Positions 6,973-21,914 of a DNA stretch of 64,000 nucleotides are shown one piece after another; within the stretch, counting starts at the first letter, position 1; every line of letters begins with the position of its first letter. Made by a program: the position numbers and the translations under genes. The stretch comes from a virus: the IMG/VR virus record IMGVR_UViG_3300024259_002152, positions 124,001 to 188,000 of that record. One strand, written 5' to 3'. The notes beneath the pieces were generated by a model that saw only the letters and a list, made by a program, of their open reading frames with translations, was not told the DNA's origin and searched no databases.

Positions 6973-7456
6973 GATAGAAAGAAAATTTCTATTAAAAGAT
7001 CGTTTTCCATATTGGAGTTATGAGAATAGTATTTATTATTCTAAGGAAAATATTAGACAGGGATATTTTCAAAATAGTAACATACGAGTAAGAATTATTG
7101 ATGAAGAGAAAGCGTTTTTAACTATAAAAGGAGACAGGGAATATATATCTAGAGACGAGTTTGAATATGAAATACCTATTCATGATGCTTATGTTATAAT
7201 CTCGTTGTTTTGTCCAAATTCTATATTAAAAACAAGATATATGTGCAAGGAGAATGGACTTATATGGGAAATAGATATTTTTCATGAACTTAATGAGGGA
7301 TTGGAGATTGCAGAAGCTGAATTAGAATCGGAAGATCAAAAAATTATCCTTCCGTCGTGGATTGGTAAAGAAGTAACAGATGATGATAGATATTATAATC
7401 ATTATCTATGTGAGAACCCTTATAGAATATGGTGTTTAGGAGATAGATATGGATAG
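6962..7456 (+). CDS. CYTH-domain protein (triphosphate tunnel metalloenzyme)
   Basis: Starting at ATG 6962 gives a 164-residue protein beginning MKIEIERKFLL, the EIERK signature (ExExK) of CYTH/adenylate cyclase class IV/thiamine-triphosphatase enzymes, which bind inorganic or organic triphosphates in an eight-stranded tunnel. NIRVRII, AFLTIKGD and DEFEYEIP supply the expected Arg/Lys/Glu-rich strands, and WEIDIFHELNEGLEIAEAEL is the usual second half (the family's 'G...vE.E'). Substrate cannot be read; tripolyphosphatase is common for short bacterial members. It overlaps the helicase stop and the ACP start, so it is coupled to both. Confidence 0.85.
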   Translation: MKIEIERKFLLKDRFPYWSYENSIYYSKENIRQGYFQNSNIRVRIIDEEKAFLTIKGDREYISRDEFEYEIPIHDAYVIISLFCPNSILKTRYMCKENGLIWEIDIFHELNEGLEIAEAELESEDQKIILPSWIGKEVTDDDRYYNHYLCENPYRIWCLGDRYG

Positions 7457-7703
7457 ATTAGAAATTGAGGACAAAGCAAAGAAATCTATTGTAGAGGTAT
7501 TAAGAGTGGATGTTGATTCCATTGCTGACGACTCTCGTTTGGGAATTGATCTTAATGCTGATAGTTTGGATTTAATTGAGCTTATTATGCAAATAGAAGA
7601 TGATTTCGACATTGAGATTCCTGATGAGGAAGCAGAGTCTATTCTTACGTTTAAATCTTTAGTAGATGTTGTGGAAAAAAAATTAGAGAATGAGTCTAGC
7701 TAA
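7449..7703 (+). CDS. acpP: Acyl carrier protein
   Basis: 84 residues, the normal ACP length. NADSLDLIELIMQIEDDF (about 37-54) contains the DSL motif whose Ser is modified by 4'-phosphopantetheine, followed by the acidic recognition helix and EIPDEEAE. It would carry acyl groups as thioesters, relying on host holo-ACP synthase; no fatty-acid or polyketide enzyme is in the window, so it may feed or divert a host acylation pathway, or lipid modification of glycans. It overlaps the CYTH gene by 8 nt and the following gene by 14 nt. Confidence 0.9.
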   Translation: MDRLEIEDKAKKSIVEVLRVDVDSIADDSRLGIDLNADSLDLIELIMQIEDDFDIEIPDEEAESILTFKSLVDVVEKKLENESS

Positions 7704-8091
7704 ATATATTCCTTTAAGAGAAGCTTCTGTACAATACGGCAATAAAGATATGCCAGTAGTGGCTATTAAGGGATTTACTATAGATATATCACGTTTAACT
7801 GCTTCTTACGAGATATGGTTGAATGTTAATGATGCTTCTGGGATAGTCGCCGCTTCTGATAATGTTGTAACTAATGCTATTAGTATGGTTTCTACAGATA
7901 TGAATGAAGCAGCAACTTTTATCATAGATGGAGTATTAGTTTCTTGCTTTATAAAACACTATATTTATCATTCTATCAAACATGCTTATTTGGTTAAAAT
8001 AGAATTTTTATTAGATAAAAACGAAGTCAAATCCTATATGTTTGAAGAAGAGAATGGGGAACAGACTCGTTTTGATATATTGGATTTATAG
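7690..8091 (+). CDS. Unknown protein with C-terminal RF(D/E)ILDL tag
   Basis: 133 residues with no recognised family. The body is beta-rich (VVAIKGFTIDISRLTASYEI, ATFIIDGVLVSCFIKHYIYH), suggestive of a small domain that may assemble with the two similar-sized proteins encoded just downstream. The last seven residues are RFDILDL (8068-8088), the first of eight related C-termini within 13 kb. The start lies within the end of the ACP gene, so translation is probably coupled. No signal peptide or membrane helix. Confidence 0.7.
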   Translation: MSLAKYIPLREASVQYGNKDMPVVAIKGFTIDISRLTASYEIWLNVNDASGIVAASDNVVTNAISMVSTDMNEAATFIIDGVLVSCFIKHYIYHSIKHAYLVKIEFLLDKNEVKSYMFEEENGEQTRFDILDL

Positions 8092-8100
8092 GAGATAAAA

Positions 8101-8454
8101 ATGAGCGGAGATTGCAAACAAATTGTGATTGATGACTCGGTGGCTGACAAAGAATCTATTTATAAGATATTATCGGAATTTGCTCGTGACGAAAAAGTTT
8201 CAGTTTTCAAAGTGGGAGACACTTCTACTGCAAATATGAAAAAAATGAATGAATCATGTATAAGATATCGGGAGGAAGTCCACAAATTGGCAGAAAGAAC
8301 CAAAAGATTAGCAAAGGAAGAAAAAAGACGGAAAAAAGAGTTATCCAGGCTTAGAGAGGAAGAGAAAGAACTTGTTAAAAAATTATCAGATATGGAAAAA
8401 GAAATAAATTTTAGAGTAATAAATGATAATCGTGCTAATTGGTTGGATTTATGA
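8101..8454 (+). CDS. Coiled-coil protein with divergent C-terminal tag
   Basis: 117 residues. Residues about 40-105 form a long charged heptad-like helix (KLAERTKRLAKEEKRRKKEL and following), typical of a coiled coil. The C-terminus is RANWLDL, which keeps the R and the final L-D-L of the R-F-E-I-L-D-L tag on its neighbours; I treat it as a diverged version. The stop is part of ATGATG, so the next gene starts inside it. Function unknown; the order 'globular, coiled-coil, globular, globular' with shared tags suggests a complex or shared destination. Confidence 0.65.
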   Translation: MSGDCKQIVIDDSVADKESIYKILSEFARDEKVSVFKVGDTSTANMKKMNESCIRYREEVHKLAERTKRLAKEEKRRKKELSRLREEEKELVKKLSDMEKEINFRVINDNRANWLDL

Positions 8455-8918
8455 TGGACCTATTACAAGTTATAATTCCTGATGTTTCGAATTTTTATAT
8501 CCTATTAAAAAACGGAGAAAGAATACCTATATATCGATATTCAAAAATTGATATTAATTTTTGTGAGAGGACTGTCTTTAAAAATGGTGCTAGTCAGAAA
8601 GTTCAATCTCCTCTTATTACTTATAAAATTGAATTAGATAAAGATTCTAAAGAAAAATTAAAAACATTGTTTTCTAATTATTCTTGTTCTTCGACTTTAC
8701 ATACAAGAAGAGCAAAAATCAAAGTGGGTAAGTATGGATATATATTTGATGTAGATATATCGGCAAGACCTGACATGGGAGATTCTTATCTTTTGAAAAG
8801 AGGATATAGAGAAAGTATTGAAATATCCTTAAAGCTAGAGAATACAGATATATCTTTATTCGATGATGCAGAAGAAGCTTATGAAAAATATAGTCGTTTT
8901 GAAATATTGGACTTATAA
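8451..8918 (+). CDS. Unknown beta-rich protein with C-terminal RFEILDL tag
   Basis: About 155 residues. The start is ATG 8451 or 8454 in ATGATG overlapping the previous stop; a TTG at 8439 in frame is less likely. The body alternates short strands (FYILLKNGERIPIYRYSKID; AKIKVGKYGYIFDVDISA), without a recognised domain. It ends SRFEILDL (tag codons 8895-8915). The stop TAA and the next ATG overlap as TAATG. Its neighbours of similar length, also tagged, are probably functionally linked. Confidence 0.65.
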   Translation: MMDLLQVIIPDVSNFYILLKNGERIPIYRYSKIDINFCERTVFKNGASQKVQSPLITYKIELDKDSKEKLKTLFSNYSCSSTLHTRRAKIKVGKYGYIFDVDISARPDMGDSYLLKRGYRESIEISLKLENTDISLFDDAEEAYEKYSRFEILDL

Positions 8919-9367
8919 TGGCATACGGCAGCGTCACGACACTTTTAGGTGATAATTTTTCTATTTATTATGGTGATTGCGAAATTATTACAAATTTTTG
9001 TATTGACCATATGGAATTTGATGGTCATTCTCACTCTGGCAATGTTATATATAATTTTACAGCAGATTGCACTGATGTCCAATTTAATGGATGGCAAGAG
9101 GATTTTTCGAGACCTTATTCTGGTGGCGTAAATGTTGTAGCAAAAAATGGTGAAGATGTAGAAATCCCTATTTGTATGACCTCTTATGAGGTGCATCAAA
9201 ACGATATCGATATTACTAGCATTGATGGACAGCATTCTGTTCTTCCTGGAGAAAGACGTATAACTGTTTGTGGTTATATTGATTCTGGAGATTTTTCTGA
9301 TGTTGAGAGGAAAGAGACAAAAGAAGAAACATCGATTTGTAGTCGTTTTGAAATATTAGATTTATGA
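8918..9367 (+). CDS. Unknown beta-rich protein with C-terminal RFEILDL tag
   Basis: 149 residues. Many beta-prone stretches (NFSIYYGDCEIITNFCIDHM, NVIYNFTADCTDVQFNGW, ERRITVCGYIDSG) suggest a beta-sandwich or small jelly-roll domain, with no family recognised. A short charged linker (about 132-141, rich in Glu/Lys) leads to SRFEILDL (tag codons 9344-9364), so the tag is likely flexible and exposed. The stop TGA lies in ATGA, which also starts the downstream DUF115-like gene. Confidence 0.65.
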   Translation: MAYGSVTTLLGDNFSIYYGDCEIITNFCIDHMEFDGHSHSGNVIYNFTADCTDVQFNGWQEDFSRPYSGGVNVVAKNGEDVEIPICMTSYEVHQNDIDITSIDGQHSVLPGERRITVCGYIDSGDFSDVERKETKEETSICSRFEILDL

Positions 9368-10077
9368 ATAACACTTACACTCAATTAGTTAATAAGCATA
9401 TAGGGAAATTATGCATAATATTAGGAGCAGGACCATCTTTACATGATTTGTGTATATCTCCTTATTTTAAAGAAATATTAAATTATGTTGTTATTTCTAT
9501 TAATTCGGCATTTATGCCTTTGGCAGAATTTGATCTTGACCCAGAGAAACATTATTGGGTGTCCAATGACGTATTGTGCCGTAGATGGACCTATTGGAAA
9601 GATGTTGAGAAATCTAATTGCACAAAAGTAGTTCGTGATAGTTGGCTAAAATATAGAGAACAAATGAGCAATACTTTGTTTTTTTCTCCACGTCCTACTT
9701 CAGAAGATATAGTTAATCCCAAAGATGTTGGACTTTGTTATTGCTCTTCTGGACCTACATCACTAGATTTAGCTCTTCAAATGGGCTGTAAATTAATTTT
9801 TCTTTTCGGAATAGATCATAATGATAATGATAGGAAACATCATTTTTGGCAGTCGTTATATGATAGAAAAAATAGACCAACTGCTAATGCTAATATTTAT
9901 GATTCTTGGAAAAAACAAAATAGGGTTTTTGAATTTAATGATAAATCTTATAAAGCATTAAAGAAATTTGCTGATATAAAAAAAGCAGAGATATATAATT
10001 GTAGTAATATTACTAAAGTTACTGCTTTTGATAGAATATCGATAGACTATGCTTTTAAATTAATAGGGAAAAAATGA
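9364..10077 (+). CDS. DUF115/GT42-like glycosyltransferase-fold protein
   Basis: 237 residues. IILGAGPSLHDL near the N-terminus is the glycine-rich 'GxGPSL' nucleotide-binding motif shared by DUF115 (Maf-type) proteins and GT42 sialyltransferases. The second hallmark is GPTSLDLALQMGCKLIFLFG, followed by IDHND, matching the 'S.....A..lG...I.l.G.D' segment of those families. A donor such as a CMP-nonulosonate is inferred only. It is one of five such proteins in the window and most like the one at 16130. It overlaps the preceding tagged gene by ATGA and the next gene by 4 nt. Confidence 0.65.
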   Translation: MNNTYTQLVNKHIGKLCIILGAGPSLHDLCISPYFKEILNYVVISINSAFMPLAEFDLDPEKHYWVSNDVLCRRWTYWKDVEKSNCTKVVRDSWLKYREQMSNTLFFSPRPTSEDIVNPKDVGLCYCSSGPTSLDLALQMGCKLIFLFGIDHNDNDRKHHFWQSLYDRKNRPTANANIYDSWKKQNRVFEFNDKSYKALKKFADIKKAEIYNCSNITKVTAFDRISIDYAFKLIGKK

Positions 10078-10526
10078 AAACTTCATATTATTACGAAAAG
10101 GCAAAAGACCTAAATGCCGTGTCTATAGCAGCTAAAGCTCCATCATGGTATAAGGGAAGAGAGTATAAAAAACTTGCTCCTAAATATTGGTTTTTTAAGA
10201 AATATAAAAAGGATGAAGATGAAGATTTTTATACAGAGCATTACTATAAAGAAGTGTTGGACAAGTTAGATCCAGCAGAGGTGTATAAAGAACTAGGGAA
10301 AGATGCTATTCTTCTTTGCTGGGAAGCTCCAGATAAATTCTGCCATAGACATATTGTTGCAGAATGGCTGGCGTATAGATTAGGAGTAAAAGTGGAGGAG
10401 TATAAGAGTATAGATGATATTATTGATGAATGGCATAAAGGGGATAGTGATCTTGAGTTGCACGAGTATTTAGGAATGAGTTTAGAAGAATATGGTAAGT
10501 TTGTAAAGGGAGAATACAATGAATAA
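10074..10526 (+). CDS. DUF488 family protein
   Basis: 150 residues. The diagnostic segment is ILLCWEAPDKFCHRHIVAEW (about 82-101), matching the DUF488 pattern 'lLCye....CHR..va.wl', whose Cys and His residues are conserved. The N-terminal SIAAKAPSWYKGREYKKLAP also fits family members, which are found widely in bacteria and phages with no established activity. An acidic stretch DEDEDF sits mid-protein. A 17-codon frame with its own Shine-Dalgarno overlaps its end and the next gene's start. Confidence 0.75.
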   Translation: MKTSYYYEKAKDLNAVSIAAKAPSWYKGREYKKLAPKYWFFKKYKKDEDEDFYTEHYYKEVLDKLDPAEVYKELGKDAILLCWEAPDKFCHRHIVAEWLAYRLGVKVEEYKSIDDIIDEWHKGDSDLELHEYLGMSLEEYGKFVKGEYNE

Positions 10527-10547
10527 AAAGATGATAGGAGTAGTATC

Positions 10548-10928
10548 GTGGAAACAGATTCTGATAGATTAAAAAAAATGCAGACAAAAGTGGTTGAGCT
10601 TAAGAAAAAGCTACAAAAGAAACAGACTATTCGAGAATATCTAGAAGATATTCCAAAGAGTTGTTATAAATTAGGTGCTGTTGTAAGATTTTTAAATAAT
10701 TGTAAAAAGAAATATAAAAAGTATAAGTCTTTTGATGTTTATGGATCTCAAAATTATGATGGATCGAGTGGTATCAGAATTTATGGACTAAGATTTGAGA
10801 CGGAAAAAGAATATACACAAAGAACGGGAAAAACTAAATATCAGAGACAAAAAGATGCATTGGCTGACAGGAAAATGGAAAAAGAGAAATTAAGAGAGTT
10901 GATGATAAAATATCCTGAAGGAGTTTGA
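10548..10928 (+). CDS. Hypothetical basic protein, 126 aa, GTG start
   Basis: Unrecognised. GTG 10548 is supported by AGGAG (10536-10540) seven bases upstream. The N-terminus is a Lys-rich helix (LKKMQTKVVELKKKLQKKQ), then a compact middle part (FLNNCKKKYKKYKSFDVYGS) and a second basic helix. The overall strong positive charge suggests nucleic-acid contact, which is only an inference. No cysteine cluster, signal peptide or membrane helix. Confidence 0.6.
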   Translation: METDSDRLKKMQTKVVELKKKLQKKQTIREYLEDIPKSCYKLGAVVRFLNNCKKKYKKYKSFDVYGSQNYDGSSGIRIYGLRFETEKEYTQRTGKTKYQRQKDALADRKMEKEKLRELMIKYPEGV

Positions 10929-10941
10929 TAAGGGGAATAAT

Positions 10942-11277
10942 ATGATATATTCCGTTGATAAAACATTTTTTCTTTCTACGGAAGATAGATATCCTATCTC
11001 TCCTTTTAAATATGAAAAGAAAATAAGTAAAGACAAAGGATATATAATAGATAAAGATGGTATTATATGGATATTAACACATATGGTATTAGATGATAAG
11101 GATTATGGACAATGTTATTATGATGGTTGTTTAAGAGAATGTGTTACTTATATCGTTATGTATGACGGTTATTATAATTATCTAAATGTGAGATCACACA
11201 TAAAAGAGCATCTTGCTCCTAAAGAGAAATTTTATAACGAATTTTTAGGCCAATATGATAATGTTGGAAAATTATAA
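10942..11277 (+). CDS. Hypothetical protein, 111 aa
   Basis: Unrecognised. Tyrosine-rich and probably beta-rich (GYIIDKDGIIWILTHMV, ECVTYIVMYDGYYNYL), of a size and composition common among small early phage proteins. An AAGGGG Shine-Dalgarno site precedes the ATG. It is followed after 15 nt by another gene of the same size, but the two show no obvious similarity to each other. Confidence 0.6.
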   Translation: MIYSVDKTFFLSTEDRYPISPFKYEKKISKDKGYIIDKDGIIWILTHMVLDDKDYGQCYYDGCLRECVTYIVMYDGYYNYLNVRSHIKEHLAPKEKFYNEFLGQYDNVGKL

Positions 11278-11292
11278 GATAAGGAGATTTTC

Positions 11293-11631
11293 ATGGAAGT
11301 AGGATTTGTTTTCAAAGCAAATGATAGGTTATTTATTTCAGAATATTTGGGTAATAATAATTTTTCGGATGGTTATCCAATTAGTAATAATGAACCGTAT
11401 GAAGAACTAGGGGAAAATCAATTAGCTTTTGTTGAGATTGTTAAATACCCAACGGAAGATGGAGATATTGTATTTGAATTAAAAGATCATGGTTTTTATA
11501 CTATTGATAATGACTTTAGAGAGGGTGTAAAGGGCTATGAAATTTTGTTGGAGGTAGAGTGCAGAAGTAAATTATGTGAGATTGTAGAAGAATTAACAAA
11601 TAATGCTCTTCAAGATATTAGAAGAAATTAA
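11293..11631 (+). CDS. Hypothetical protein, 112 aa
   Basis: Unrecognised acidic protein with strand-rich N-terminal part (VGFVFKANDRLFISEYLG) and a helical C-terminus (CRSKLCEIVEELTNNALQDI). Strong Shine-Dalgarno AAGGAG upstream of the ATG. It sits in a run of well-spaced small genes (10.5-11.6 kb) each with its own ribosome site, unlike the overlapping tagged genes upstream. Confidence 0.6.
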   Translation: MEVGFVFKANDRLFISEYLGNNNFSDGYPISNNEPYEELGENQLAFVEIVKYPTEDGDIVFELKDHGFYTIDNDFREGVKGYEILLEVECRSKLCEIVEELTNNALQDIRRN

Positions 11632-11649
11632 GAAATAAGGAGAAATAAT

Positions 11650-12681
11650 ATGAATGTAGTTTTAGTCATACCAACTGGTATTGGTTGCGAAATCGGCGGC
11701 GACGCAGGAGATGCTCAACCAGCAGCTAGATTAATAGGATCTTGTTGTGATAAATTGATTCTTCATCCAAACGTTGTCAATGCGTCGGACATCAATGAGA
11801 TGCCTCCTAATGCGTGGTATGTTGAGGGGTCCATCCTAGATAGGTTCCTAGAGGGTCGTATCATTTTGAAAAAACCTTATAGTAATAAGATTTTAGTGGT
11901 AGTAAATGCTCCAGCCGATTATCAATCTATTAATGCCGTTTCTGCCGCAAGGGCTTCTTTAGGTATAGATGCAGAGATAGTTGAATTAGAGACTCCTTTA
12001 GAACTTATTGCCAGAATGGAAAATGGTTTGGCTACGGGAGATGTTCATGGTTGGGAAGCACTAATTAGACAGGTTCAGGATTATGAGTTTGATGCTTTAG
12101 CTATTGCTACTCCTATTACTATTTCTGAAGATGATCTTATATACTATTTTAGAGAAGGTGGAGTAAATCCTGTAGGAGGGGTTGAAGCTGTGGCTTCTAA
12201 AATAATTGCTGATAGGATAAATAAGCCAGTGGCTCACGGTCCTGTTGATTATAGTATGAAAGAATTTCGGGAAGTAGTTGATCCAAGAAAAGCAGTTGAA
12301 ATAATTACAGAGAATTATATTCATTGTATATTGAAAGGACTTCATCAAGCTCCAAGAATAGTTGATGTAGGGTGGGGAGTTCGAGGTGTCCCAGAATTTT
12401 CTGTAAATTGGCTGACTCTTCCTGACATAGATGTTATGATAAGTCCTATGGGATGTTTTGGTCCTCCTCATAGGGCTTGTTTAGCCAGTAATATACCTAT
12501 CATAGTAGTTCGGGAGAACACGACTGTTTTGAATGATTTTGAGGATGGAGATGAGAGATTTATATTTGTTGATAATTATATTGAAGCAGCAGGTATGATT
12601 ATGAGTATGAGAGCAGGAGTTCATCCTCCTACTGTTAGAAGACCGTTAGAATATACGAAAGTTACAAAAAATAGGTTTTGA
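11650..12681 (+). CDS. DUF3326 family protein
   Basis: 343 residues, the usual length of DUF3326 proteins, known chiefly from cyanobacteria and plants with unassigned function. The N-terminus VVLVIPTGIGCEIGGDAGDA closely fits the family pattern 'viPTGiGc.iGG.aGDA', and HPNVVNASDINEMP, YVEGSILDRFLEG, GGVEA and PMGCFGPPHRACLASNIPI follow in the expected order. No catalytic role should be assumed. Its presence in a phage-like gene array is unusual and suggests capture of a metabolic gene. AAGGAG ribosome site upstream; it ends 3 nt before the repeat-protein gene. Confidence 0.75.
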   Translation: MNVVLVIPTGIGCEIGGDAGDAQPAARLIGSCCDKLILHPNVVNASDINEMPPNAWYVEGSILDRFLEGRIILKKPYSNKILVVVNAPADYQSINAVSAARASLGIDAEIVELETPLELIARMENGLATGDVHGWEALIRQVQDYEFDALAIATPITISEDDLIYYFREGGVNPVGGVEAVASKIIADRINKPVAHGPVDYSMKEFREVVDPRKAVEIITENYIHCILKGLHQAPRIVDVGWGVRGVPEFSVNWLTLPDIDVMISPMGCFGPPHRACLASNIPIIVVRENTTVLNDFEDGDERFIFVDNYIEAAGMIMSMRAGVHPPTVRRPLEYTKVTKNRF

Positions 12682-12684
12682 CAG

Positions 12685-13800
12685 ATGGACAAAAAAGAAT
12701 TTTGTAAAAAATGTAATATTTCTTTGAAAGAACTAGAAGAATATATATCAGGAAAAATGATTTTTCATGATGTCGATTTTCGAGACTTATTACTAGTTAA
12801 AAATCAGACAGAAGAGATATGTTTAGAAGCAGTTAAGCAAAATGGCTATGCTTTGCATTATGTTGAAGATCAAACAGAACAAATCTGTTTAGAAGCAGTC
12901 AAACAAAATGGTTTGGTTTTAGAATATGTTGAAGATCAAACAGAACAAATTTGTTTAGAAGCGGTTAGACAAAACAGTTGTGTTTTGGAGTTTGTTGAAA
13001 AACAAACAGAACGAATTTGTTTAGAGGCAGTGAAAAAAGGAGGTTTTGCTGTAAAGCATGTTAGAAATCAAACAGAACAAATTTGTTTAGAAGCGGTCAG
13101 GCAAACTGGTCTGGCTTTGGAGTTTGTTGAAGATAGAACAGAATACGTATGTCTAGAAGCAATTAAGCAAACTAGTAATGCTTTGAGATACATTGAAGAT
13201 CAAACAGAAGAGATATGTTTTAAGGCGATTAGGAAAAATGGTCGTGCTATTCAATATGTTAAGAATCAAACAGAACAAATTTGTATAGAAGCAGTCAAAC
13301 AAAATGGAGGTGCTTTGCAATTTATTAAAAAACAGACAGAACAAATATGTTTAGAAGCTGTTAAACAAAATGGTTATGTTTTGCGTTATGTTAAAAATCA
13401 AACAGATGAAATCCGTTTAGAGGCAGTCAAACAATATGGTTTATCTTTGCAATTTGTTGAAAATAAGACAGAAAAAATATGTATAGAAGCAATAAGACAA
13501 ACTGGGACTGCCTTATTGTTTGTCGAGAATCAGACCGAACAAATGTGTTTAGAGGCAGTTAAACAAAATAGTTATGTTGTGAGATATGTCAAAAATCAAA
13601 AAGAAAAAATATGTGAGTTATTGTCAAAAAAACATCCTATTTTTATCCAGTACTCAGATAATTTTGATCTTGATCATATAGTTGAGCTAATAGGTAAAAA
13701 TAGGAAAGTGCTTAATTTTGTAGATTGGGATAGAGTTAATTTTGATAAAACAAAGAAAAGAAAGAAAATTAACAATAGGTTTGAAATATTAGATTTATGA
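12685..13800 (+). CDS. DUF4116-like 22-residue repeat protein with C-terminal RFEILDL tag
   Basis: 371 residues. Residues 41-304 are twelve tandem 22-residue units of the form QTEQICLEAVKQNGxALxYV, with a thirteenth degenerate unit, resembling DUF4116 repeats (alpha-helical, each a pair of short helices). A short non-repeat N-terminal cap of 40 residues precedes them. After the array comes a 45-residue basic region (KKRKKINN) and the tag RFEILDL (13777-13797). The array should form a solenoid, i.e. a binding scaffold; the ligand is unknown. Its stop forms ATGA with the next gene, which also carries the tag. Confidence 0.8.
   Translation: MDKKEFCKKCNISLKELEEYISGKMIFHDVDFRDLLLVKNQTEEICLEAVKQNGYALHYVEDQTEQICLEAVKQNGLVLEYVEDQTEQICLEAVRQNSCVLEFVEKQTERICLEAVKKGGFAVKHVRNQTEQICLEAVRQTGLALEFVEDRTEYVCLEAIKQTSNALRYIEDQTEEICFKAIRKNGRAIQYVKNQTEQICIEAVKQNGGALQFIKKQTEQICLEAVKQNGYVLRYVKNQTDEIRLEAVKQYGLSLQFVENKTEKICIEAIRQTGTALLFVENQTEQMCLEAVKQNSYVVRYVKNQKEKICELLSKKHPIFIQYSDNFDLDHIVELIGKNRKVLNFVDWDRVNFDKTKKRKKINNRFEILDL
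12805..13662 (+). repeat. Tandem 66-bp coding repeats (12 full plus 1 degenerate)
   Basis: In-frame units of 66 bp encode 22 residues each. Nucleotide identity between neighbouring units is partial, with many synonymous changes (CAA/CAG, GAA/GAG, TTA/ATA), so the array is not recent slippage. Conserved residues are the Thr-Glu, Ile-Cys-Leu-Glu-Ala-Val and the Gln-Asn/Thr-Gly turn. Confidence 0.9.
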
Positions 13801-14096
13801 AATACGGAATAGGCAACAAGGTAAGGATTAAAACATGGGACCAGATGGAGGAAGAATTTGGACTGATTAATGAAACCTATATAAAAATTGATCCATGTTT
13901 TTGTCGTTTTATGGAAAAAGAGATTAATGGATTAAACAATGGCAGAATTGTAACAATTAAAGATACTAAAGGACCAAAATGGTATAAGTTAGAAGAAATA
14001 GGTTATATCTGTGTTGATGATATGATCGAATGTCTAGCAGAAGATTATGTGGAACCAATACCTATTGGGAATAGGTTTGAAATATTAGATTTGTAA
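13797..14096 (+). CDS. Small SH3-like protein with C-terminal RFEILDL tag
   Basis: 99 residues. The N-terminus KYGIGNKVRIKTWDQMEEEF and the later GRIVTIKDTKGPKWYKLEEI match a widespread type of small phage/bacterial protein beginning 'G.KVrI.sW.qM..EfG', probably an SH3-like barrel; function unknown. A Pro-rich linker (VEPIPIGN) leads into RFEILDL (14073-14093), very similar to the linker-plus-tag of the protein at 14883. Overlaps the repeat-protein gene by ATGA. Confidence 0.7.
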   Translation: MKYGIGNKVRIKTWDQMEEEFGLINETYIKIDPCFCRFMEKEINGLNNGRIVTIKDTKGPKWYKLEEIGYICVDDMIECLAEDYVEPIPIGNRFEILDL

Positions 14097-14111
14097 GAAA
14101 GGAAAAATAAA

Positions 14112-14579
14112 ATGGCAATTAATTCAGAATTATTATTATTTATAGAACCAAAAGAAAAACCTTCTAACATTCCTATTATTGACGAGTTGACTAAAAAGAT
14201 GTCGGCTTCGTTGAGGAAAGCTAAAAAGGGAACTATACGTAGGTATAGTGTAATGGGTCAGGGGTATGAGTTTAATGAGGGAGATGGATGGTGTGGTTGG
14301 CATAATTGCTCATGTGGAGCAAATGCAGGAGGGCATGACTTTTTATTGTCTAATGGAGAGATGACTAACGCAAATTGTATTCATTATTTAGCATATCATA
14401 GAAAAGAAATATCACAAGAGCAATTAGATAGAGTTGCTAATTTAGGTGATGGTCAAGAAACTCCTGATAGTTATGAGTTAGAAAGAGGTAGAGAAGAATG
14501 GGTTAAACTCATGAATCCTGGCAGATCGAAAAAAGCCATGACTAGACAAGAATATTTAGATGGAATAAAACAAATATGA
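14112..14579 (+). CDS. Hypothetical Cys/His-containing protein, 155 aa
   Basis: Unrecognised. A central segment reads WCGWHNCSCGANAGGHDFLL followed by TNANCIHYLAYHR, with five cysteines and four histidines suited to a zinc site. The N-terminal 50 residues are charged and helical; the C-terminus is basic. The start has an AAAGGA site, and the end overlaps the deoxyribosyltransferase-like gene by 4 nt, suggesting coupled expression. Confidence 0.6.
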   Translation: MAINSELLLFIEPKEKPSNIPIIDELTKKMSASLRKAKKGTIRRYSVMGQGYEFNEGDGWCGWHNCSCGANAGGHDFLLSNGEMTNANCIHYLAYHRKEISQEQLDRVANLGDGQETPDSYELERGREEWVKLMNPGRSKKAMTRQEYLDGIKQI

Positions 14580-14878
14580 AAGACAATAAAATTATTTGTT
14601 TATGTGGTTCTACAAAATTTAAGAAAGAATTTGAAGAAGCGACATGGGAGCAATCGTTAAAAGAGAAAATAGTTTTATCGGTTTGTTGTTTTACTCATCA
14701 TGATAATCTTAAATGGTCTGATGAGCAACTATTACTATTCCATGATCTGCATAAGAGGAAGATAGAGATGGCAGATGAGATATTAGTTGTGAATGTTGGT
14801 GGATATATAGGAAAGACTACAAAGGAAGAGATAAAATATGCCGAATCATTAGGAAAAACGGTTATATATCAATATTAG
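14576..14878 (+). CDS. Nucleoside 2-deoxyribosyltransferase-like (Rossmann) protein
   Basis: 100 residues. ICLCGSTKF at the N-terminus (motif CGS.kf) and later MADEILVVNVGGYIGKTTKE then IKYAESLGKTVIY match short nucleoside 2-deoxyribosyltransferase-like/DUF4406-type proteins, in which the 'D.i.v.N.g.yiG..t..Ei.yA..lgk.v' segment closes the fold. They act on nucleoside N-glycosidic bonds; substrate here unknown. Immediately after (and overlapping) its stop, the DNA reads I-L-D-L-stop in another frame (14872-14886), a possible frameshifted remnant of the RFEILDL tag. Confidence 0.7.
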   Translation: MKDNKIICLCGSTKFKKEFEEATWEQSLKEKIVLSVCCFTHHDNLKWSDEQLLLFHDLHKRKIEMADEILVVNVGGYIGKTTKEEIKYAESLGKTVIYQY

Positions 14879-14882
14879 ATTT

Positions 14883-15143
14883 ATGAGCAAATGGATATCA
14901 ATAAATAAAGAACTTCCTCCTTTGAATACATCAGTAGAGATTATATATAATGATCGAATATCTCATGCTAAATTATTTAAGAATAAGAAAGGAATAGTAA
15001 TGTGGAAAGTATCAAATACTTCCTTAAGCGATCCAAGAAGTCTTTATTATAATATTAAATTTGAGCAAAAAGAAGTTCATTTTTGGAGAGAAGAAGAGAT
15101 ATTTGAACCAATTGGGAATAGATTCGAAATATTAGATTTGTAG
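14883..15143 (+). CDS. DUF551-like small protein with C-terminal RFEILDL tag
   Basis: 86 residues. KWISINKELPPLNTSVEIIY is the beginning typical of DUF551 and related phage proteins ('W.s..e.lP......V.v.y'), and HFWREEEIF the usual close, followed by EPIGN and the tag RFEILDL (15120-15140). The tag is therefore an addition after an otherwise complete small domain. The ATG lies inside a tag-like sequence after the previous gene. The gene is followed by a strong terminator, so it ends the transcription unit. Confidence 0.7.
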   Translation: MSKWISINKELPPLNTSVEIIYNDRISHAKLFKNKKGIVMWKVSNTSLSDPRSLYYNIKFEQKEVHFWREEEIFEPIGNRFEILDL

Positions 15144-15164
15144 TTTTTTGAGAAATAGTAAAAA

Positions 15165-15203
15165 GTGGATAATGCAATATTTTTTGCACTGTCCATTTTT
15201 TTT
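15165..15203 (+). terminator. Rho-independent terminator
   Basis: A 13-nt arm (15165-15177) pairs with 15184-15196 (two G-U pairs, one mismatch) around the 6-nt loop TATTTT, followed directly by a run of eight T. It ends the unit that began upstream with the tagged genes. Confidence 0.85.
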
Positions 15204-15282
15204 GAGAAAAAAGGAGGATTTTGAAGCGTAATATAATAATTAGTATTACAGACTTACAAAATTGCACGATTACGGAAAAAAG

Positions 15283-15798
15283 ATGGCTAAAGATATAATA
15301 GGATTTTACGAGGGTAGAGCTAGGAACCAAGAGGGATATACTATTGACGATATAAGTGGATTTACTGATGCAGGATTGGAGAAAAATCATTGTTATATAC
15401 AGTGGATATTTCCTTTGCCAGAAAAAAGTAAAGCAGTTCCTACTTCTCCTATATTAAGACAAGGAGATATAGACGAATTTAATCGTCGTCCTGATTTACA
15501 GAAGAAGATGAGAACTATGTTTGAAATTATGCTTATGTTCTATGGTCTTAATATTTACGAACATAAAGTAAGAACTTCTTTTGAGCATTGGCATTATAGA
15601 TATCCTGTGTGGTTAACTCCTCGTAATCATAATTTTTTAAGAATAAGTAGAATAATTAGATCTGCGAAGTTATTAGGGTTAAAGGGAGAGGCGCAAATGT
15701 TTTATGATTTTTTGTGCAATATTTATAAAGATAATAAAGGGACCATAGGTCCTGTTACAAAACAATTTTGGGACGAGGCCATAACTAAAGATTTTTAA
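15283..15798 (+). CDS. Opioid growth factor receptor (OGFr)-domain-like protein
   Basis: From ATG 15283 the protein has 171 residues. IIGFYEGRARNQEGYTIDDI, LEKNHCYIQWIFPLPE and later YGLNIY, HWHYRYPVW follow the OGFr conserved region ('i..FY.g...n..G.t..di......Le..HdyIQWlFPl'), known in bacteria and fungi without assigned function. The start is uncertain: an in-frame TTG at 15262 has no ribosome site, whereas a perfect AAGGAGG at 15211 serves a short 25-codon frame (TTG 15221) overlapping in another frame, so a leader peptide or a -1 shift at the A6 run is possible. Confidence 0.7.
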   Translation: MAKDIIGFYEGRARNQEGYTIDDISGFTDAGLEKNHCYIQWIFPLPEKSKAVPTSPILRQGDIDEFNRRPDLQKKMRTMFEIMLMFYGLNIYEHKVRTSFEHWHYRYPVWLTPRNHNFLRISRIIRSAKLLGLKGEAQMFYDFLCNIYKDNKGTIGPVTKQFWDEAITKDF

Positions 15799-15812
15799 AT
15801 AGGAGAAAGATA

Positions 15813-16127
15813 ATGACAAAAAGAAAGAAAAATGAAAATATAGTAGATCTTAGAAAGAGAGCATCAGATCAAGAGATTATGGACATCTCTCCTGATCCTA
15901 TAATTTGTGATACAGATAATAGTGATGCTAATATTATTCTAGAAACAAGATTAAACGGTTATAGACAAGATAATACTAGGGTATTTTCTATGAGAATGAA
16001 TGAAGATTTATTGACACATATTAAGCAAATAGCGAGAAAAAAGTCTGTCGAATTAAAAAGAGATGTTCCTTATCAATTTCTTATGATCCAAGCTATTGAA
16101 GAGAAATATCCTCTTTCCGAGGAATAA
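15813..16127 (+). CDS. Putative ribbon-helix-helix-like protein, 104 aa
   Basis: The second half reads TRVFSMRMNEDLLTHIKQIA, a strand followed by a helix like ribbon-helix-helix (CopG/Arc) DNA-binding proteins ('fsiRl...l...ik..A'), then DVPYQFLMIQAIEEKY as a second helix. The first 50 residues are acidic and probably flexible. A transcriptional regulator or an antitoxin-like role is possible; no toxin partner is seen. Good Shine-Dalgarno (AGGAGA). It ends 2 nt before the next gene. Confidence 0.5.
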   Translation: MTKRKKNENIVDLRKRASDQEIMDISPDPIICDTDNSDANIILETRLNGYRQDNTRVFSMRMNEDLLTHIKQIARKKSVELKRDVPYQFLMIQAIEEKYPLSEE

Positions 16128-16129
16128 TA

Positions 16130-16849
16130 ATGCAAGTAAGTGATTTTAGAGATAAAAATAAAGGGGAGATAACTTTTTTATTAGGAAGTGGTCCTTCTCT
16201 TCATGATGTAAATATAGATATTATAAAGAATTATTTATGTATAGCAGTTAATTCAAGTATAGATAAATATTCTGATTGTGATTTTTTTATATCTGATGAC
16301 TCTGACATAAAAAGTTGGAATTACTATGACGTTATTAAAAAATCTCCATGTGTCAAATTTTTCTACGAGAAGAAATTTAAGAATATAGTTAGTGATTGGA
16401 AAAATATTATTTTATATGATCACAAGAGTTGGTATTCACCAGAAAACAACAGTTATTATTTGGACGGATTGAGACTTACTAAAGATGAACCGATAATAGG
16501 GGCAAGAATCTCTATGGGCTCCGCTTTGCATATTGCCTATATCCTAGGTTGTAATCCTATCGTATTGATTGGGAATGACGCGAGGGTAGTAGATGGTAAA
16601 AGATATTATTGGCAATTTCCTGGCGAGAAAAAACAATATCGCATAAAAGGTAGAAAATTTACTCGTCAAACTCAACAAATAGGTTTCGATGAAAAAGCTT
16701 ATAGAAAATATTGGGAGAGTTTTGCAGAAGTAAATAAAGATATTATAGGAAAAGAAATTAACATTATAGATGCTTCTAATAGTAGTTTAGATTGTTTTCC
16801 GAAGATGACTATTGAGGAAGTATTAGAAAAGGAGAATAAAAATGAGTAA
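16130..16849 (+). CDS. DUF115/GT42-like glycosyltransferase-fold protein
   Basis: 239 residues. ITFLLGSGPSLHDV (about 12-25) is the Gly-rich motif; ISMGSALHIAYILGCNPIVL followed by IGND is the second hallmark. The layout parallels the protein at 9364, including the LGxGPSLHD sequence, so the two are paralogues. It precedes the two Lys-tailed genes and a CMP-nonulosonate synthetase, so a link to nonulosonate transfer is plausible but inferred. The end overlaps the next start by 8 nt. Confidence 0.65.
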   Translation: MQVSDFRDKNKGEITFLLGSGPSLHDVNIDIIKNYLCIAVNSSIDKYSDCDFFISDDSDIKSWNYYDVIKKSPCVKFFYEKKFKNIVSDWKNIILYDHKSWYSPENNSYYLDGLRLTKDEPIIGARISMGSALHIAYILGCNPIVLIGNDARVVDGKRYYWQFPGEKKQYRIKGRKFTRQTQQIGFDEKAYRKYWESFAEVNKDIIGKEINIIDASNSSLDCFPKMTIEEVLEKENKNE

Positions 16850-17456
16850 AGATAAAGGTATTGTGATGGCTAACGGGGTGGTCCTGAAGGATGGTTTAAA
16901 TAGATTTAAAGCTGATAGGGGGATAGTGTCACAATCTATGTCTCGTATTGCTAAAATATCAAAGGGTTTATATTCTGGGATTCTAAATTCAGATCCTGAT
17001 TTTGTTGAATTTCAGGAAGAAGCTATGGAAGGTGTTATAACAAAAGAAATTGATAAACTTTGTGATAAAGTGGTTTTAGGAGCAGAAAATCAATTGCAGA
17101 AAATATCTGCGCAAATGGTGGCCGATAGGGCAGCAAATTATCGATATTCGGGTAGTGAGAGTCGTCACTCCAATGTTGAAGAGATAGATTTATCTAAAGG
17201 TGAAGATCCAATTAGAGTTAGAGCACGGAAACCAGAAGAGAAAAAAGTTGTTATAAAAGCACAAGATTTAATCAAAGATGAAAGTAACAGGCGTGCCTGT
17301 CTAAATAAAGAAGAATTAGAGAATATAAAAGAAGTTAATAAAGATGTTAAGAAGATATCTGATCTGAGAGATAAAATATTTAAGAAAATTTCAAAAAAGA
17401 AAACGAAAAAATCTGTTAAAAAAGTAATAAGAAAAAAAGGAGTAAATAAAAAATGA
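16842..17456 (+). CDS. Unknown protein with Lys-rich tail, paralogue of next gene
   Basis: 204 residues. The first 100 are helical (GLYSGILNSDPDFVEFQEEA and AENQLQKISAQMVADRAANY). The last 35 are highly basic with KKISKKKTKKSVKKVIRKKG, similar to histone-H1-like tails. It aligns with the next protein: 'ISKGLYSGILNSDPDF' versus 'MTEGLTTGTMSSDKEY' and similar following helices, so the pair arose by duplication. The tail suggests DNA or RNA binding, or neutralisation of DNA charge; this is inference. AAGGAG ribosome site. Confidence 0.65.
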   Translation: MSKDKGIVMANGVVLKDGLNRFKADRGIVSQSMSRIAKISKGLYSGILNSDPDFVEFQEEAMEGVITKEIDKLCDKVVLGAENQLQKISAQMVADRAANYRYSGSESRHSNVEEIDLSKGEDPIRVRARKPEEKKVVIKAQDLIKDESNRRACLNKEELENIKEVNKDVKKISDLRDKIFKKISKKKTKKSVKKVIRKKGVNKK

Positions 17457-18019
17457 AAGAAAAAACAATTATAATTAAAGATGGTGTAAAATTAGATTTA
17501 TCAACTCTTAGCGAAGAGTGGATAGATGAAGAGATATTGGGAAAAGAAATGCAATATATATCTAGAATGACAGAAGGATTAACAACAGGAACCATGTCTA
17601 GTGATAAGGAATATATCCTTTTAAAAAATAAGGTTGTTGATGAAATGATCAAAAATAAAGTTGTATCCCTAAAAAAGGAATTATGTGAGGCAGCGAAGAA
17701 AAAAACTGACATTTATGACCAAGCGGATATGATTCAGGCGCAAGCCCTCCAGAGGATTCAGGATAATGCAAGAGCAGTAGCTAGAGAGAATGATAGGGAG
17801 ATGCCTATAGATAAATTAAAGGATATCGTAACAAAATACAACCTAAAAGATCCTGCCCTTGATTGCATAGCTGATCATCCCAACATCGAGAAAGTAGCAG
17901 GAAAGGTGCAGAAAAAGACGATAAAAAAGAAGAAAGTTAAGAAAAAAATACTTAAGAAAAAAATAGCTAGGAAAAAAATAGTTAAGAAAAAGGTTACTAA
18001 GAAACGTGATAGGCGATAA
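17453..18019 (+). CDS. Unknown protein with Lys-rich tail, paralogue of previous gene
   Basis: 188 residues. It begins KTIIIKDGVKLDLSTL, comparable with the upstream paralogue's IVMANGVVLKDGL, and shares the GLxxGxxxSD motif. The last 35 residues are mainly Lys/Arg with short hydrophobic spacing (KKKILKKKIARKKIVKKKVT). The tail is encoded by imperfect AAGAAAAAA-type repeats, a sequence prone to slippage, so tail length may vary between relatives. It overlaps the previous gene by ATGA and the following synthetase by 14 nt. Confidence 0.65.
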   Translation: MKEKTIIIKDGVKLDLSTLSEEWIDEEILGKEMQYISRMTEGLTTGTMSSDKEYILLKNKVVDEMIKNKVVSLKKELCEAAKKKTDIYDQADMIQAQALQRIQDNARAVARENDREMPIDKLKDIVTKYNLKDPALDCIADHPNIEKVAGKVQKKTIKKKKVKKKILKKKIARKKIVKKKVTKKRDRR

Positions 18020-18737
18020 AAAGATATTAACTATAGTTACGGCTCGTGGTGGGTCGAAAGGAATTCCAGGGAAAAATTACCGAGATTTATGTGGATATCC
18101 TTTATTCATGTGGTCCATGTTGGCTTCTTTAGAATCAAAATATATTGATGCTACTATTTTATCTTCTAATTGTGATGAGTGTTTGAGAATTTGTGAGCAA
18201 TGTGCAGGAGAGGTAGATAAAGATAAGACATATGGTTGGATTGTAAGACCAGACGAATATGCTACAGATCTTTCTAAGAATGAAGATGCTCTTATTCATG
18301 CTCTGAAATTTCTTAATGAAGAATATGATGTTGTTATAAATTTACAACCTACCTCTCCTTGCAGATTGGATGGATTGTTAGATAGAAGTATCGAAGCATA
18401 TTATAAAGGAGGATATGACAGTTTATTGACCGCTGGTAAAGATACTCCTTTTATATGGCAAAAAATAGATGAAAAATGGGAATATACTGTTGATAAGAAT
18501 CCTTCTTGTGAAAGGAAGATGAGGCAAGAGTTCGATGAAAATGAATTTATCTTTCATGACAACGGCAACATTTACCTAGTAGAAAGTGAAATTTTACTTG
18601 ACACAGAATGTAGAATAGGGTATAACCCATGTGTTGTAGAGACAAGTGGTATAAATAATATCCAAATTGACCAAGAGTTTGATTTTCTTTTAATCTCTAA
18701 ACTATTGGAATCAATGAAGTTAGAAAGACCAATATGA
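18006..18737 (+). CDS. neuA: CMP-nonulosonate (N-acylneuraminate) cytidylyltransferase
   Basis: 243 residues, near the size of single-domain NeuA/PtmB. TIVTARGGSKGIPGKNYRDL at the N-terminus is the nucleotide-binding P-loop-like signature of CMP-sialic acid synthetases (ARgGSKgip.KN). NLQPTSPCR corresponds to the conserved QPTSPLR, and FIFHDNGNIYLVE to the 'i..nGaiYi' region. It couples CTP to a nine-carbon acid. The start is GTG 18006 inside the previous gene. It is one of three such genes in the window (others at 44877 and 63239). Confidence 0.88.
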   Translation: MIGDKKILTIVTARGGSKGIPGKNYRDLCGYPLFMWSMLASLESKYIDATILSSNCDECLRICEQCAGEVDKDKTYGWIVRPDEYATDLSKNEDALIHALKFLNEEYDVVINLQPTSPCRLDGLLDRSIEAYYKGGYDSLLTAGKDTPFIWQKIDEKWEYTVDKNPSCERKMRQEFDENEFIFHDNGNIYLVESEILLDTECRIGYNPCVVETSGINNIQIDQEFDFLLISKLLESMKLERPI

Positions 18738-18762
18738 TGAAAATAAAGGAATTGATTATCTT

Positions 18763-18791
18763 TTTACAGAACGTTATTGTAGTTTTGTAAA
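18763..18791 (+). promoter_or_regulatory. Hairpin abutting the ribosome site of the homing endonuclease gene
   Basis: Arms 18763-18772 and 18782-18791 (10 bp, one G-U) with a 9-nt loop; the 3' arm ends in the AAA of AAAGGAG, the Shine-Dalgarno of the gene at 18802. There is no T-run, so it looks like a translation-control structure rather than a terminator. Confidence 0.4.
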
Positions 18792-18801
18792 GGAGATAAA
18801 T

Positions 18802-19725
18802 ATGAATAAATATTTTTGGACAGAAGAGGAGATAAATGTTGTTAGAAATACGGATTTAACTTTATCTGAAATGATGGGATTACTTCCTAATAGAACTTAT
18901 TCTGGCATTAGAGGGCAAATTAAAAAACAAGGGATATCATTAAGTAAAGAATCTATTTCAAAGGCACACACCTTGGGCCATCTAGGTATTAAAGAAGCTG
19001 ATATTGATAAAATCTTAGCAGATTCTAATTTTTTAGATATAATAAATGGTAATCTGTTGGGCGATGCATGGATAGATAAGTCTCATAACTTTGGATTGGC
19101 GAATATTAGTAAAGAATTTGTAGAACATGTTAATGTAGAACTTAATCGAATTTTTAAAAGTAATTCTAAAGTTTGTGTTAAATTGTCAAATGAGGGAAAG
19201 ATAAATGGGAAAAGATTCAAGAGAAAAAAACAATATTATATGAGTAAATCTTGTAAGCCAATTTTTCGTAATTTGTATTATCAATGGTATGAGAATGGGG
19301 AGAAAATAGTTCCAGACGAATTAGATCTTACTCCCATGTGCTGTTATTTTTGGTATATAGGAGATGGTTGTATAAATTGTAAAGAGAAAAGACAAAGCGC
19401 TTCAATATCTCTTTCCACAAATGCTTTCTCTAAAAGATGTGTGGAGAAGCTTCTTAATAAAATGCAGGATAAAATTAATGGATTTAATGCGTCTGTCCAT
19501 TTTTTGAAAGATAAACCAGTTATTTTTATTAGCGGTCGATTTGTTTTGAAATTTCTAGATTATATCGGTGATGGATTTTTAAAATCATTTTCTTATAAGT
19601 GGAATTTAAATGGTTATTCTGAACAAAAGACCGTCTGTAAGGTTTGTAATAAGGAATTTGTCCACTACGGTTTTAAGAAAAATTATAGAACTCAATGCAG
19701 TGTTTGTAGAAAGAAATTAAAATGA
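18802..19725 (+). CDS. Free-standing LAGLIDADG-type homing endonuclease
   Basis: 307 residues. N-terminal 50 residues (FWTEEEINVVRNTDLTLSEM) resemble a Myb/SANT-like helix-turn-helix. The first LAGLIDADG-like motif is INGNLLGDAWI (81-91), the second YFWYIGDGC (182-190), each with the acidic residue expected to bind metal. A C-terminal zinc ribbon has cysteines 279, 282, 299 and 302. Such genes are selfish invaders inserted between phage genes; the likely target is an allele lacking it between the NeuA and MBL genes. It carries a good AAAGGAG site partly covered by a hairpin, and overlaps the next start by ATGA. Confidence 0.82.
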   Translation: MNKYFWTEEEINVVRNTDLTLSEMMGLLPNRTYSGIRGQIKKQGISLSKESISKAHTLGHLGIKEADIDKILADSNFLDIINGNLLGDAWIDKSHNFGLANISKEFVEHVNVELNRIFKSNSKVCVKLSNEGKINGKRFKRKKQYYMSKSCKPIFRNLYYQWYENGEKIVPDELDLTPMCCYFWYIGDGCINCKEKRQSASISLSTNAFSKRCVEKLLNKMQDKINGFNASVHFLKDKPVIFISGRFVLKFLDYIGDGFLKSFSYKWNLNGYSEQKTVCKVCNKEFVHYGFKKNYRTQCSVCRKKLK

Positions 19726-20498
19726 ATTTGATTTTTTTGGGAGTTGCTTCTGCATTAAGCAATGGTTATAACTCCAATATATTAATAGAAGATAAAAAAA
19801 ATGCAATGCTTTTTGATTGTGGAGAAGATATAAAACACTCGCTTAGGGCAGCAGGAAGAAAGGTAGAAGAATTAAATTCGGTATATATATCACATTTGCA
19901 CTCTGATCATTGCTATGGGTTGAGTTGGCTCGGATATTACTCATATTTTATTTTGAAGAGAAAAATTAATCTTTATATCCATGAAAGTTTGGTTAATGAG
20001 CTTTGGTGTATGTTGTCACCAGCTATGAATAAACTTCAAGGCGGTTGTAACTTCGAGACTCTTGCAACGTATTTTAATGTTCGTTCTATTCCTGATGATG
20101 ATCCTATTTTTTCATTTGGGACGGCGGAAATGGAGTTAATTAAAAATAAACATATTAGTTCGTTTGTTGGTAATATGTATAGTTATGGTTTGCTGATTAA
20201 AGATGATAGTTATAAAAAGGGAATATATATATCTGCTGATACTATGTTTATTCCTCCAGGCACCATTTGGAATGAAAAAATAGATTTTGTTTTTCAAGAT
20301 GTTGATGTTTTTAATTTAGGAGGTGTTCATTGTAATTATAACGTATTAAAAGAGATGCCTCTTTATTATAAAGAACGGATATGGCTTTACCACTATACTG
20401 ATCTTTCTAAATATGATGGGAAGTATGGAGAGATGCCTGATGCTGTTGCAGATGGATTTGCAGGTTTTGTTAAAGAGGGGCAAGTGTTTGAGTTTTAA
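19722..20498 (+). CDS. Metallo-beta-lactamase-fold hydrolase (RNase Z-like)
   Basis: 258 residues. ISHLHSDHCYGL at about 56-67 is the HxHxDH metal site; MLFDCGED upstream and YISADTMF (about 168-175, carrying the later metal Asp) and the closing YHYTDL supply the other ligands. The N-terminus LIFLGVASALSNGYNSNIL matches RNase Z/arylsulfatase-type members (lGtG.a....nts.ll). Substrate may be RNA 3' ends, a phosphodiester or another ester and cannot be decided. It starts within the homing endonuclease stop codon. Confidence 0.82.
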   Translation: MNLIFLGVASALSNGYNSNILIEDKKNAMLFDCGEDIKHSLRAAGRKVEELNSVYISHLHSDHCYGLSWLGYYSYFILKRKINLYIHESLVNELWCMLSPAMNKLQGGCNFETLATYFNVRSIPDDDPIFSFGTAEMELIKNKHISSFVGNMYSYGLLIKDDSYKKGIYISADTMFIPPGTIWNEKIDFVFQDVDVFNLGGVHCNYNVLKEMPLYYKERIWLYHYTDLSKYDGKYGEMPDAVADGFAGFVKEGQVFEF

Positions 20499-20515
20499 TA
20501 TTATGAGAAATTTAT

Positions 20516-20803
20516 ATGGCAAAAGAATTAACCTCATCAGAGATAGAAGAATTGGATAGTTTAATAGAATGGGGCGGTGAATTTGGCGTAGGGTCCCCAG
20601 GATATGTGGAAACTCCCATTCATCCAAAAAGTGAGGTTGTTTCTAGTAATAATAATTTGGTTCATCCTTTTTCTGATGACGGAGTTGATGAAAGATGTTT
20701 AGAATATTGGGAAAAGATGGAATATAGAAAAAGGCCAAGAAAATTCAGAAATAAAATAGAGAATAATAAGATAAAAACCAGAATTGAAATTTTAGACTTA
20801 TAG
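20516..20803 (+). CDS. Unknown protein with C-terminal RIEILDL tag
   Basis: 95 residues, acidic at the N-terminus (LTSSEIEELDSLIEWGGEFG), with a Lys/Arg-rich stretch (YRKRPRKFRNKIENNKIK) before the tag RIEILDL (20780-20800). No domain recognised; it looks largely disordered, which makes the conserved C-terminus the most informative part. It lies 5 kb from the other tagged genes, past the terminator at 15165, showing that the tag is not confined to one transcript. Confidence 0.6.
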   Translation: MAKELTSSEIEELDSLIEWGGEFGVGSPGYVETPIHPKSEVVSSNNNLVHPFSDDGVDERCLEYWEKMEYRKRPRKFRNKIENNKIKTRIEILDL

Positions 20804-21913: not shown

Positions 21914-21914
21914 A

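Follow-up and report, generated by a model that had tools for sequence, protein, structure and literature searches.

A short C-terminal peptide shared by dozens of small phage proteins is a predicted docking tag in a clade of very large phages

The capsid-targeting sequence (CTS) of bacteriophage T4 is an N-terminal element. It is one short peptide common to highly diverse small phage proteins (PMC3012670). The C-termini through which T4 gp43, gp55 and gp33 bind the sliding clamp are hydrophobic-acidic peptides that follow a divergent linker, are interchangeable and transferable, and are tolerated and able to work at internal positions (PMC2988020). Encapsulin cargo is addressed to a shared shell by C-terminal targeting peptides (PMC7925596), and the bacterial beta-clamp-binding motif (QL[SD]LF type) has a hydrophobic-acidic core. 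In Bacillus phage G (NC_023719), a near-C-terminal segment, YWKENDRYLAK, is common to 26 proteins, encoded at 26-33 kb, 99.9 kb and 352-370 kb. Here, we describe a peptide with some likeness to each of these, RFEILDL and its variants, which ends eight small proteins in a window of 64,000 nt (positions 124001-188000 of the 350,866-bp IMG/VR virus record IMGVR_UViG_3300024259_002152, hereafter G000) and recurs throughout that record and in its relatives. The phage encodes a clamp of bacterial DnaN type, and the major capsid protein of its clade (assigned through PHROG 2522) is 55% identical to the phage G counterpart; a group of Pol III-encoding phages that includes phage G has already been described by others (PMC7824862).

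All eight tagged C-termini named in a preliminary description, which was made from the letters of the window, are present in the sequence (Table 1). Eight is too low as a total, since G000 has about 40 carriers. The whole record, beyond the window, was read piece by piece for carriers, using longest open reading frame (ORF) calls that missed a few large genes at piece boundaries. Thirty-eight proteins carry the tag strictly at the C-terminus; all are encoded on the plus strand, in groups at about 10-13, 21.7, 30.1, 94.6, 106-116, 131-144, 250-255, 273 and 279 kb. The carriers are small (median 115 amino acids, aa) and their genes are clustered, with 20 adjacent pairs versus 3.0 expected. Counting matches up to 16 residues from the C-terminus, 40 of the 509 G000 genes carry the motif, compared with a mean of 0.19 and a maximum of 3 over 300 shuffles of the last 27 residues of each protein, which rules out chance; the rest of the G000 proteome holds one internal match in 97,330 residues. 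The same count gives 32/489 genes in G001 and 66/817 in G002, with shuffle means over the three genomes of 0.16-0.28. A motif-free count of the last four residues also returns ILDL as the commonest ending in G000 (25 genes), G001 (26) and G002 (19).

The tag has a narrow distribution. A pattern scan of IMG/VR yielded matches almost only from G001 (297,710 bp), G002 (547,943 bp) and the fragments G003 and G004; those in contigs G005-G008 appear to be fortuitous. With G001, G000 has 230 reciprocal best hits (median 66% identity); with G002 it has 273 (54% identity). By pattern search, the tag is absent from phage G, LR745208 and Tunturi_5. Phage G homologues of the carrier repeat proteins lack it, so the tag is probably an addition of this phage clade.

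Selection acts on the tag at the protein level. Across 26 ortholog pairs in which both members are tagged, identity is 87% in the tag, 50% in the preceding 15 residues and 53% in the body, and 42% of the identical tag residues are encoded by different codons. The 111 tags of G000, G001 and G002 comprise 102 distinct 21-mers, and at the DNA level conservation does not extend past the stop codon. Within the window, synonymous variation in the tag is as first claimed (Arg as CGT, AGG or AGA; Phe as TTT or TTC; Leu as TTA or TTG; Asp as GAT or GAC), and the accompanying argument for protein-level selection over a DNA repeat holds up across the genomes. Relatives do not lose the tag at random: for 12 of the 13 tagged G000 genes with a reciprocal best hit in G001, the partner is strictly tagged, while the thirteenth ends RFDILDM, and most of the G002 partners that are not strictly tagged still hold the motif just inside the end. 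Even the divergent RANWLDL belongs to a true carrier, judging from the tail of its orthologue (Table 1).

The element extends beyond seven residues, to P-I-x-[SND]-R-F-[ED]-I-L-D-[LI]. Among 117 tags, Arg1 and Asp6 are invariant (both were required or nearly required by the selection pattern), position 5 is Leu or Met, position 7 is Leu or Ile, and Ile4, Glu/Asp3 and Phe2 occur in 101, 105 and 90 tags, respectively. Upstream, position 0 is Ser, Asn or Asp in 100 tags, position -2 is Ile in 78 and position -3 is Pro in 37; because these positions lay outside the selection pattern, their conservation is independent evidence. The tag is not always terminal either. About 20 further G002 proteins hold the motif 1-16 residues inside the end (for example, RSELLDLGE and RFEILDLSYG), and this varying distance indicates that neither DNA context nor a free carboxylate is needed. 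The initial picture of a strictly C-terminal heptapeptide is thus correct in that the tag is shared, and too narrow in both length and position. Another G002 C-terminus considered as a tag, PFINE, belongs instead to a whole-length paralogue array.

Glu, Lys, Ile and Pro abound in the 20 residues that precede the tag. AlphaFold2 models of two carriers, built on shallow alignments (mean predicted local distance difference test, pLDDT, of 68 and 70), place the tails below a pLDDT of 50, as at residues 140-159 of the protein encoded at 8451..8918 of the window. Foldseek assigns neither carrier model a confident fold: one is barrel-like without a convincing match, and the second has weak tail-tube-like matches. 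By the known rules of helix capping, [SND]-R-F-[ED] would be a helix N-cap with a capping box, and the tag as a whole would form a short, capped helix carried by a disordered tail.

Protein-level selection, retention in relatives and abundance beyond chance support the earlier proposal that the tag is a docking peptide for one receptor, although the receptors then proposed fare unequally; the localization signal also put forward there is possible. From this pattern, the tag is very probably a portable docking peptide. The charged, variable tail, modeled as disordered, would act as a tether, and the peptide, once bound in a groove of one multivalent receptor, would form a short alpha-helix in which [SND] is the N-cap, [SND]-x-x-[ED] the capping box, I4, L5 and L7 the hydrophobic side, and R1 and D6 invariant polar contacts. 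Less certain than the tether and the helix is the identity of the receptor, which may be a phage-encoded hub of the DNA-replication complex. A small protein that gains the peptide would thereby be enrolled at this hub, like the clients of a clamp ‘tool belt’. The statement as a whole, docking peptide together with replication hub, is tentative, and we hold it with slightly less than even confidence.

A replication hub is favored because an SSB paralogue is tagged, a clamp in a Candidatus Kuenenia metagenome-assembled genome (MAG) is tagged, and tagged genes share a promoter class with the clamp and SSB genes. The tagged SSB paralogue is encoded at 21748-22257 of G000; the main SSB (120339) ends DDWESNF. 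The tagged clamp came to light when 84,980 genomes of bacteria and archaea (GTDB) were scanned for the pattern; the 56 matches are scattered and nearly all background. Inspection of 57 loci (56 GTDB, 1 viral) found 27 in-frame ends, 2 with [SND]R and 0 with Ile at -2, so that all apart from the clamp are background. This phage-type sliding clamp, a 444-aa DnaN-type protein (L229:13076-14410) on the 40.6-kb contig CAMDDF010000006.1, is 30% identical over its length to the G000 clamp (E = 7e-73) and has a 22-residue C-terminal extension, WDDKYLSIDHDGVVSRFEILDL, with the tag, SRFEILDL, at its end. A chance match that lands on the clamp gene family is very unlikely. The gene is followed by DnaB (37%) and two SSB-like genes resembling those of G000; since both accompany the one tagged clamp, a DnaB-type helicase and SSB are themselves receptor candidates. 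Because the MAG has ordinary DnaN and DnaE elsewhere, and a second clamp was not found in 30 related genomes searched, the contig represents either an integrated element or a chimera. GenBank phages gave no match to this clamp, the G000 clamp, the SSB paralogue or a 263-aa metalloprotease-like carrier.

Upstream regions of G000, G001 and G002 contain strong motifs, namely TTCCAGACAA (class A), class B and a further motif, ATGTCGATATAT. The class A motif, TTCCAGACA, is present in 45 upstream regions (its 8-mer TTCCAGAC occurs 47 times versus 0.1 expected) and in G000 lies mainly at 285-350 kb. Class B, AAAGTGAAA-N-TATAAT, directly precedes the tagged genes 10587, 109749 and 272953, likewise their G001 orthologues, and is also found upstream of the clamp gene 226309 and the SSB gene 257182. 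Counting genes no more than 6 kb from a site, the tagged ones divide 83 B : 1 A versus 586 : 264 for the others (Fisher p = 9e-12), a value that is optimistic because of the spatial clustering of the promoter classes and of position. Further points weigh against a replication hub. Promoter class is a mere proxy for timing, and for many tagged genes the nearest recognized promoter is over 6 kb away. Only one tagged clamp was seen, picked out on inspection of the matches, and its contig may be chimeric. No receptor was found for the tag, and comparison with phage G gave none, as homology of the phage G segment to RFEILDL was not established. Finally, a capsid role would explain no less well the carriers that contain capsid-arm and scaffold-like pieces.

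Such a role is the main rival of the replication hub. The tag would then mark proteins for the virion as the C-terminal equivalent of the T4 CTS, loading diverse host-takeover or anti-defense proteins into the prohead core for injection. The tagged protein encoded at 30146-30370 (G000) and that at 508421-508639 (G002), which has one residue after the motif, both have the 32-residue N-arm of the major capsid protein at their N-terminus, while tagged 254996 (G000) and 166213 (G001) contain the zinc ribbon of a large gene adjoining the major capsid gene, whose product by eye resembles a prohead protease-scaffold protein. Carriers are also small, variable and of many folds, as are T4 internal proteins (PMC3012670). 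Set against this are the promoter class that tagged genes share with replication genes, the tag on the Kuenenia-MAG clamp, and a separate N-terminal motif that is the likelier packaging signal: MNWYK in G002 and G003, or MKRL in phage G, where it occurs on proteins resembling ADP-ribosyltransferases (ART-like). MNWYK[KR] stands at the N-terminus of 12 G002 and 5 G003 genes and nowhere else in those proteins, and an N-terminal MKI[IL][KR]T is found on unrelated proteins; genes with these motifs, which are candidate capsid-targeting sequences, lie partly near the capsid gene (Table 1). In phage G, N-terminal MKRL[IMV]K occurs on ~15 proteins genome-wide, three of them with the ART-like HGT motif, and ADP-ribosyltransferases are a class argued to be packaged in the virion (PMC9503650). 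The N- and C-terminal motifs show no significant tendency to avoid one another (an overlap of about 1 is expected). Packaging, a candidate role from the outset, is therefore possible given the capsid-arm and zinc-ribbon carriers, and not favored given the promoter class and the N-terminal motif.

Less likely again is the phage’s own sliding clamp as receptor, as for gp43, gp55 and gp33. T4 offers a precedent in the clamp-binding C-termini described above, and the tag core, F-[ED]-I-L, is similar to the terminal [IV]-D-[ILM]-F of the phage Pol III alpha. However, position 1 is Arg in 117/117 tags, where the polymerase has Thr or Ser, and the polymerase lacks the final D-L (it ends ..TIDIFG in G000 and ..TVDLFA or ..SVDMFEDLF in relatives). 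A T4-type clamp, as previously suggested, is rejected on this polymerase tail and on the lack of any gp45 family member (PF02916) in the G000 record, which may be incomplete; more generally, a clamp is disfavored because the phage polymerase ends [TS][IV]D[ILM]F and because the Kuenenia-MAG clamp appears as a client. A proteolysis signal or adaptor tail, which would dock the carrier to an AAA+ machine for its own turnover or for delivery of bound host proteins, is improbable. The phage encodes two AAA+ ATPases, one of which (101044-102702 in G000) ends [AP][KR]DLDL in all three genomes, resembling the tag but differing from it, and a stand-alone ClpC N-domain protein (311891-312496; Pfam Clp_N, E = 1e-29). 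The G002 motif, though, tolerates 1-16 following residues, unlike ssrA-type tags, which makes the degron with a free C-terminus raised in the preliminary description unlikely. Marginally less credence goes to a receptor on the host side, a protein or structure to which many phage proteins need access: carriers are variable and accessory, as is typical of host-directed proteins, but the tag is kept among phages with 53% body identity and possibly different hosts. Least credible by far is a DNA- or mRNA-level element, such as a mobile repeat or a translation-coupling signal, that is merely read as RFEILDL. It would fit the residual codon bias, in which Leu5 is TTA or TTG in 99/100 Leu cases, TGA stops are over-represented and ATGA overlaps join some tags to the next start; this bias could also reflect these overlaps and recombination that spreads 3' ends. 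The diversity of 21-mers, the use of both Arg codon boxes, the lack of conservation past the stop and the varying distance of the G002 motif from it all contradict such an element, and codon and flank data exclude a DNA repeat as the origin of the tag.

Pfam and PHROGs assign the 117 carriers almost only to families of unknown function. Types that can be told apart include SH3/KOW-like, DUF551 and DUF4116 proteins, the metalloprotease-like protein, which is conserved with its tag in G000, G001 and G002, and 255294, with an N-terminal hydrophobic segment. The fold names first attached to the carriers mostly remain by eye, as Pfam and PHROGs gave almost no known family and Foldseek no confident fold. 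Among the core replication and virion proteins, polymerase, helicase, RecA and tail proteins lack the tag. The G000 Pol III alpha lies in two pieces with tagged genes between them (112190-113605 and a 657-aa ORF at ~116.6-118.6 kb; also L104), and the G001 copy has apparent inteins. A 993-aa UvrD-type helicase at 3991-6972 of the window likewise has, by eye, an apparent intein insertion; its G002 homologue has 631 aa.

Table 1. Tagged coding sequences of the window (window positions, 1 = first letter) and, in the last row, genes with N-terminal motifs (positions in the genomes named)
Positions	Strand	Product	Tail (positions)	Remarks
7690..8091	+	133 aa	RFDILDL (8068-8088)	G001 orthologue also RFDILDL
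8101..8454	+	117 aa, coiled coil by eye	RANWLDL, divergent (8431-8451)	G001 orthologue RSNWLDL
8451..8918	+		RFEILDL (8895-8915)	Tag kept in G001 and G002 orthologues; start at ATG 8451 or 8454 likelier than listed TTG at 8439
8918..9367	+	149 aa	RFEILDL (9344-9364)	G001 orthologue RFEILDL despite 35% overall identity
12685..13800	+	371 aa, repeat protein	RFEILDL (13777-13797)	DUF4116 match among carriers
13797..14096	+	99 aa, SH3/KOW-like by eye	RFEILDL (14073-14093)	Belongs to a family with the tag in G000, G001, G002 and G003
14883..15143	+	86 aa, DUF551-like by eye	RFEILDL (15120-15140)	
20516..20803	+	95 aa, charged	RIEILDL (20780-20800)	
G002 e.g. 5356-9040, 114403-122138; G003 25-43 kb; G000 230652, 294445		Genes with N-terminal motifs		

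Most tagged proteins have no known function, and the tag gives some 130 orphan proteins one testable common property; the identity of the receptor would give all carriers a location and a probable context. Another possible use of the tag is as a portable reagent to direct proteins to one defined location while a phage infection is under way. A bolder and unlikely extension is a genome-wide ‘address and plug-in’ system, in which one phage hub would organize the replication site and dozens of small proteins would be enrolled by a ten-residue capped-helix tag. Its clients, on the same speculative footing, would include proteins that mimic parts of the capsid, scaffold and SSB, as well as the clamp in a related element. 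If true, this would be a replication compartment built differently from the phage nucleus shell.

A search of the open-access literature for the peptide letters found no paper on such a tag, the letter matches being chance, and the part of a jumbo-phage survey covered here (PMC7824862) makes no mention of one. Compared with the known systems, the tag differs from the T4 CTS in lying at the C-terminus, or within 16 residues of it, in all carriers, and in having far more carriers. It differs from the T4 clamp-binding C-termini in that gp45 is missing, the phage polymerase tail is another motif, and there are about 40-66 carriers rather than three. Relative to the bacterial beta-clamp-binding motif, the leading Gln is replaced by Arg in every tag and an Asp-Leu is added; an ssrA-like C-degron needs the free C-terminal carboxylate that ~20 G002 proteins dispense with. 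Encapsulin targeting peptides have another sequence and far fewer carriers, and no encapsulin shell gene was recognized among the genes inspected, which were not searched systematically for one. The phage G segment also has another sequence, and 21 of its 26 copies fall in one block (352-370 kb) that looks largely paralogous. By these analogies, the tag appears to resemble the T4 CTS and the T4 clamp-binding C-termini in its way of working, yet to fail a tested defining feature of each, and it seems unusual in scale: known cases of a short shared peptide involve a few phage proteins, whereas here one peptide is found on 6-8% of the genes of very large phages.

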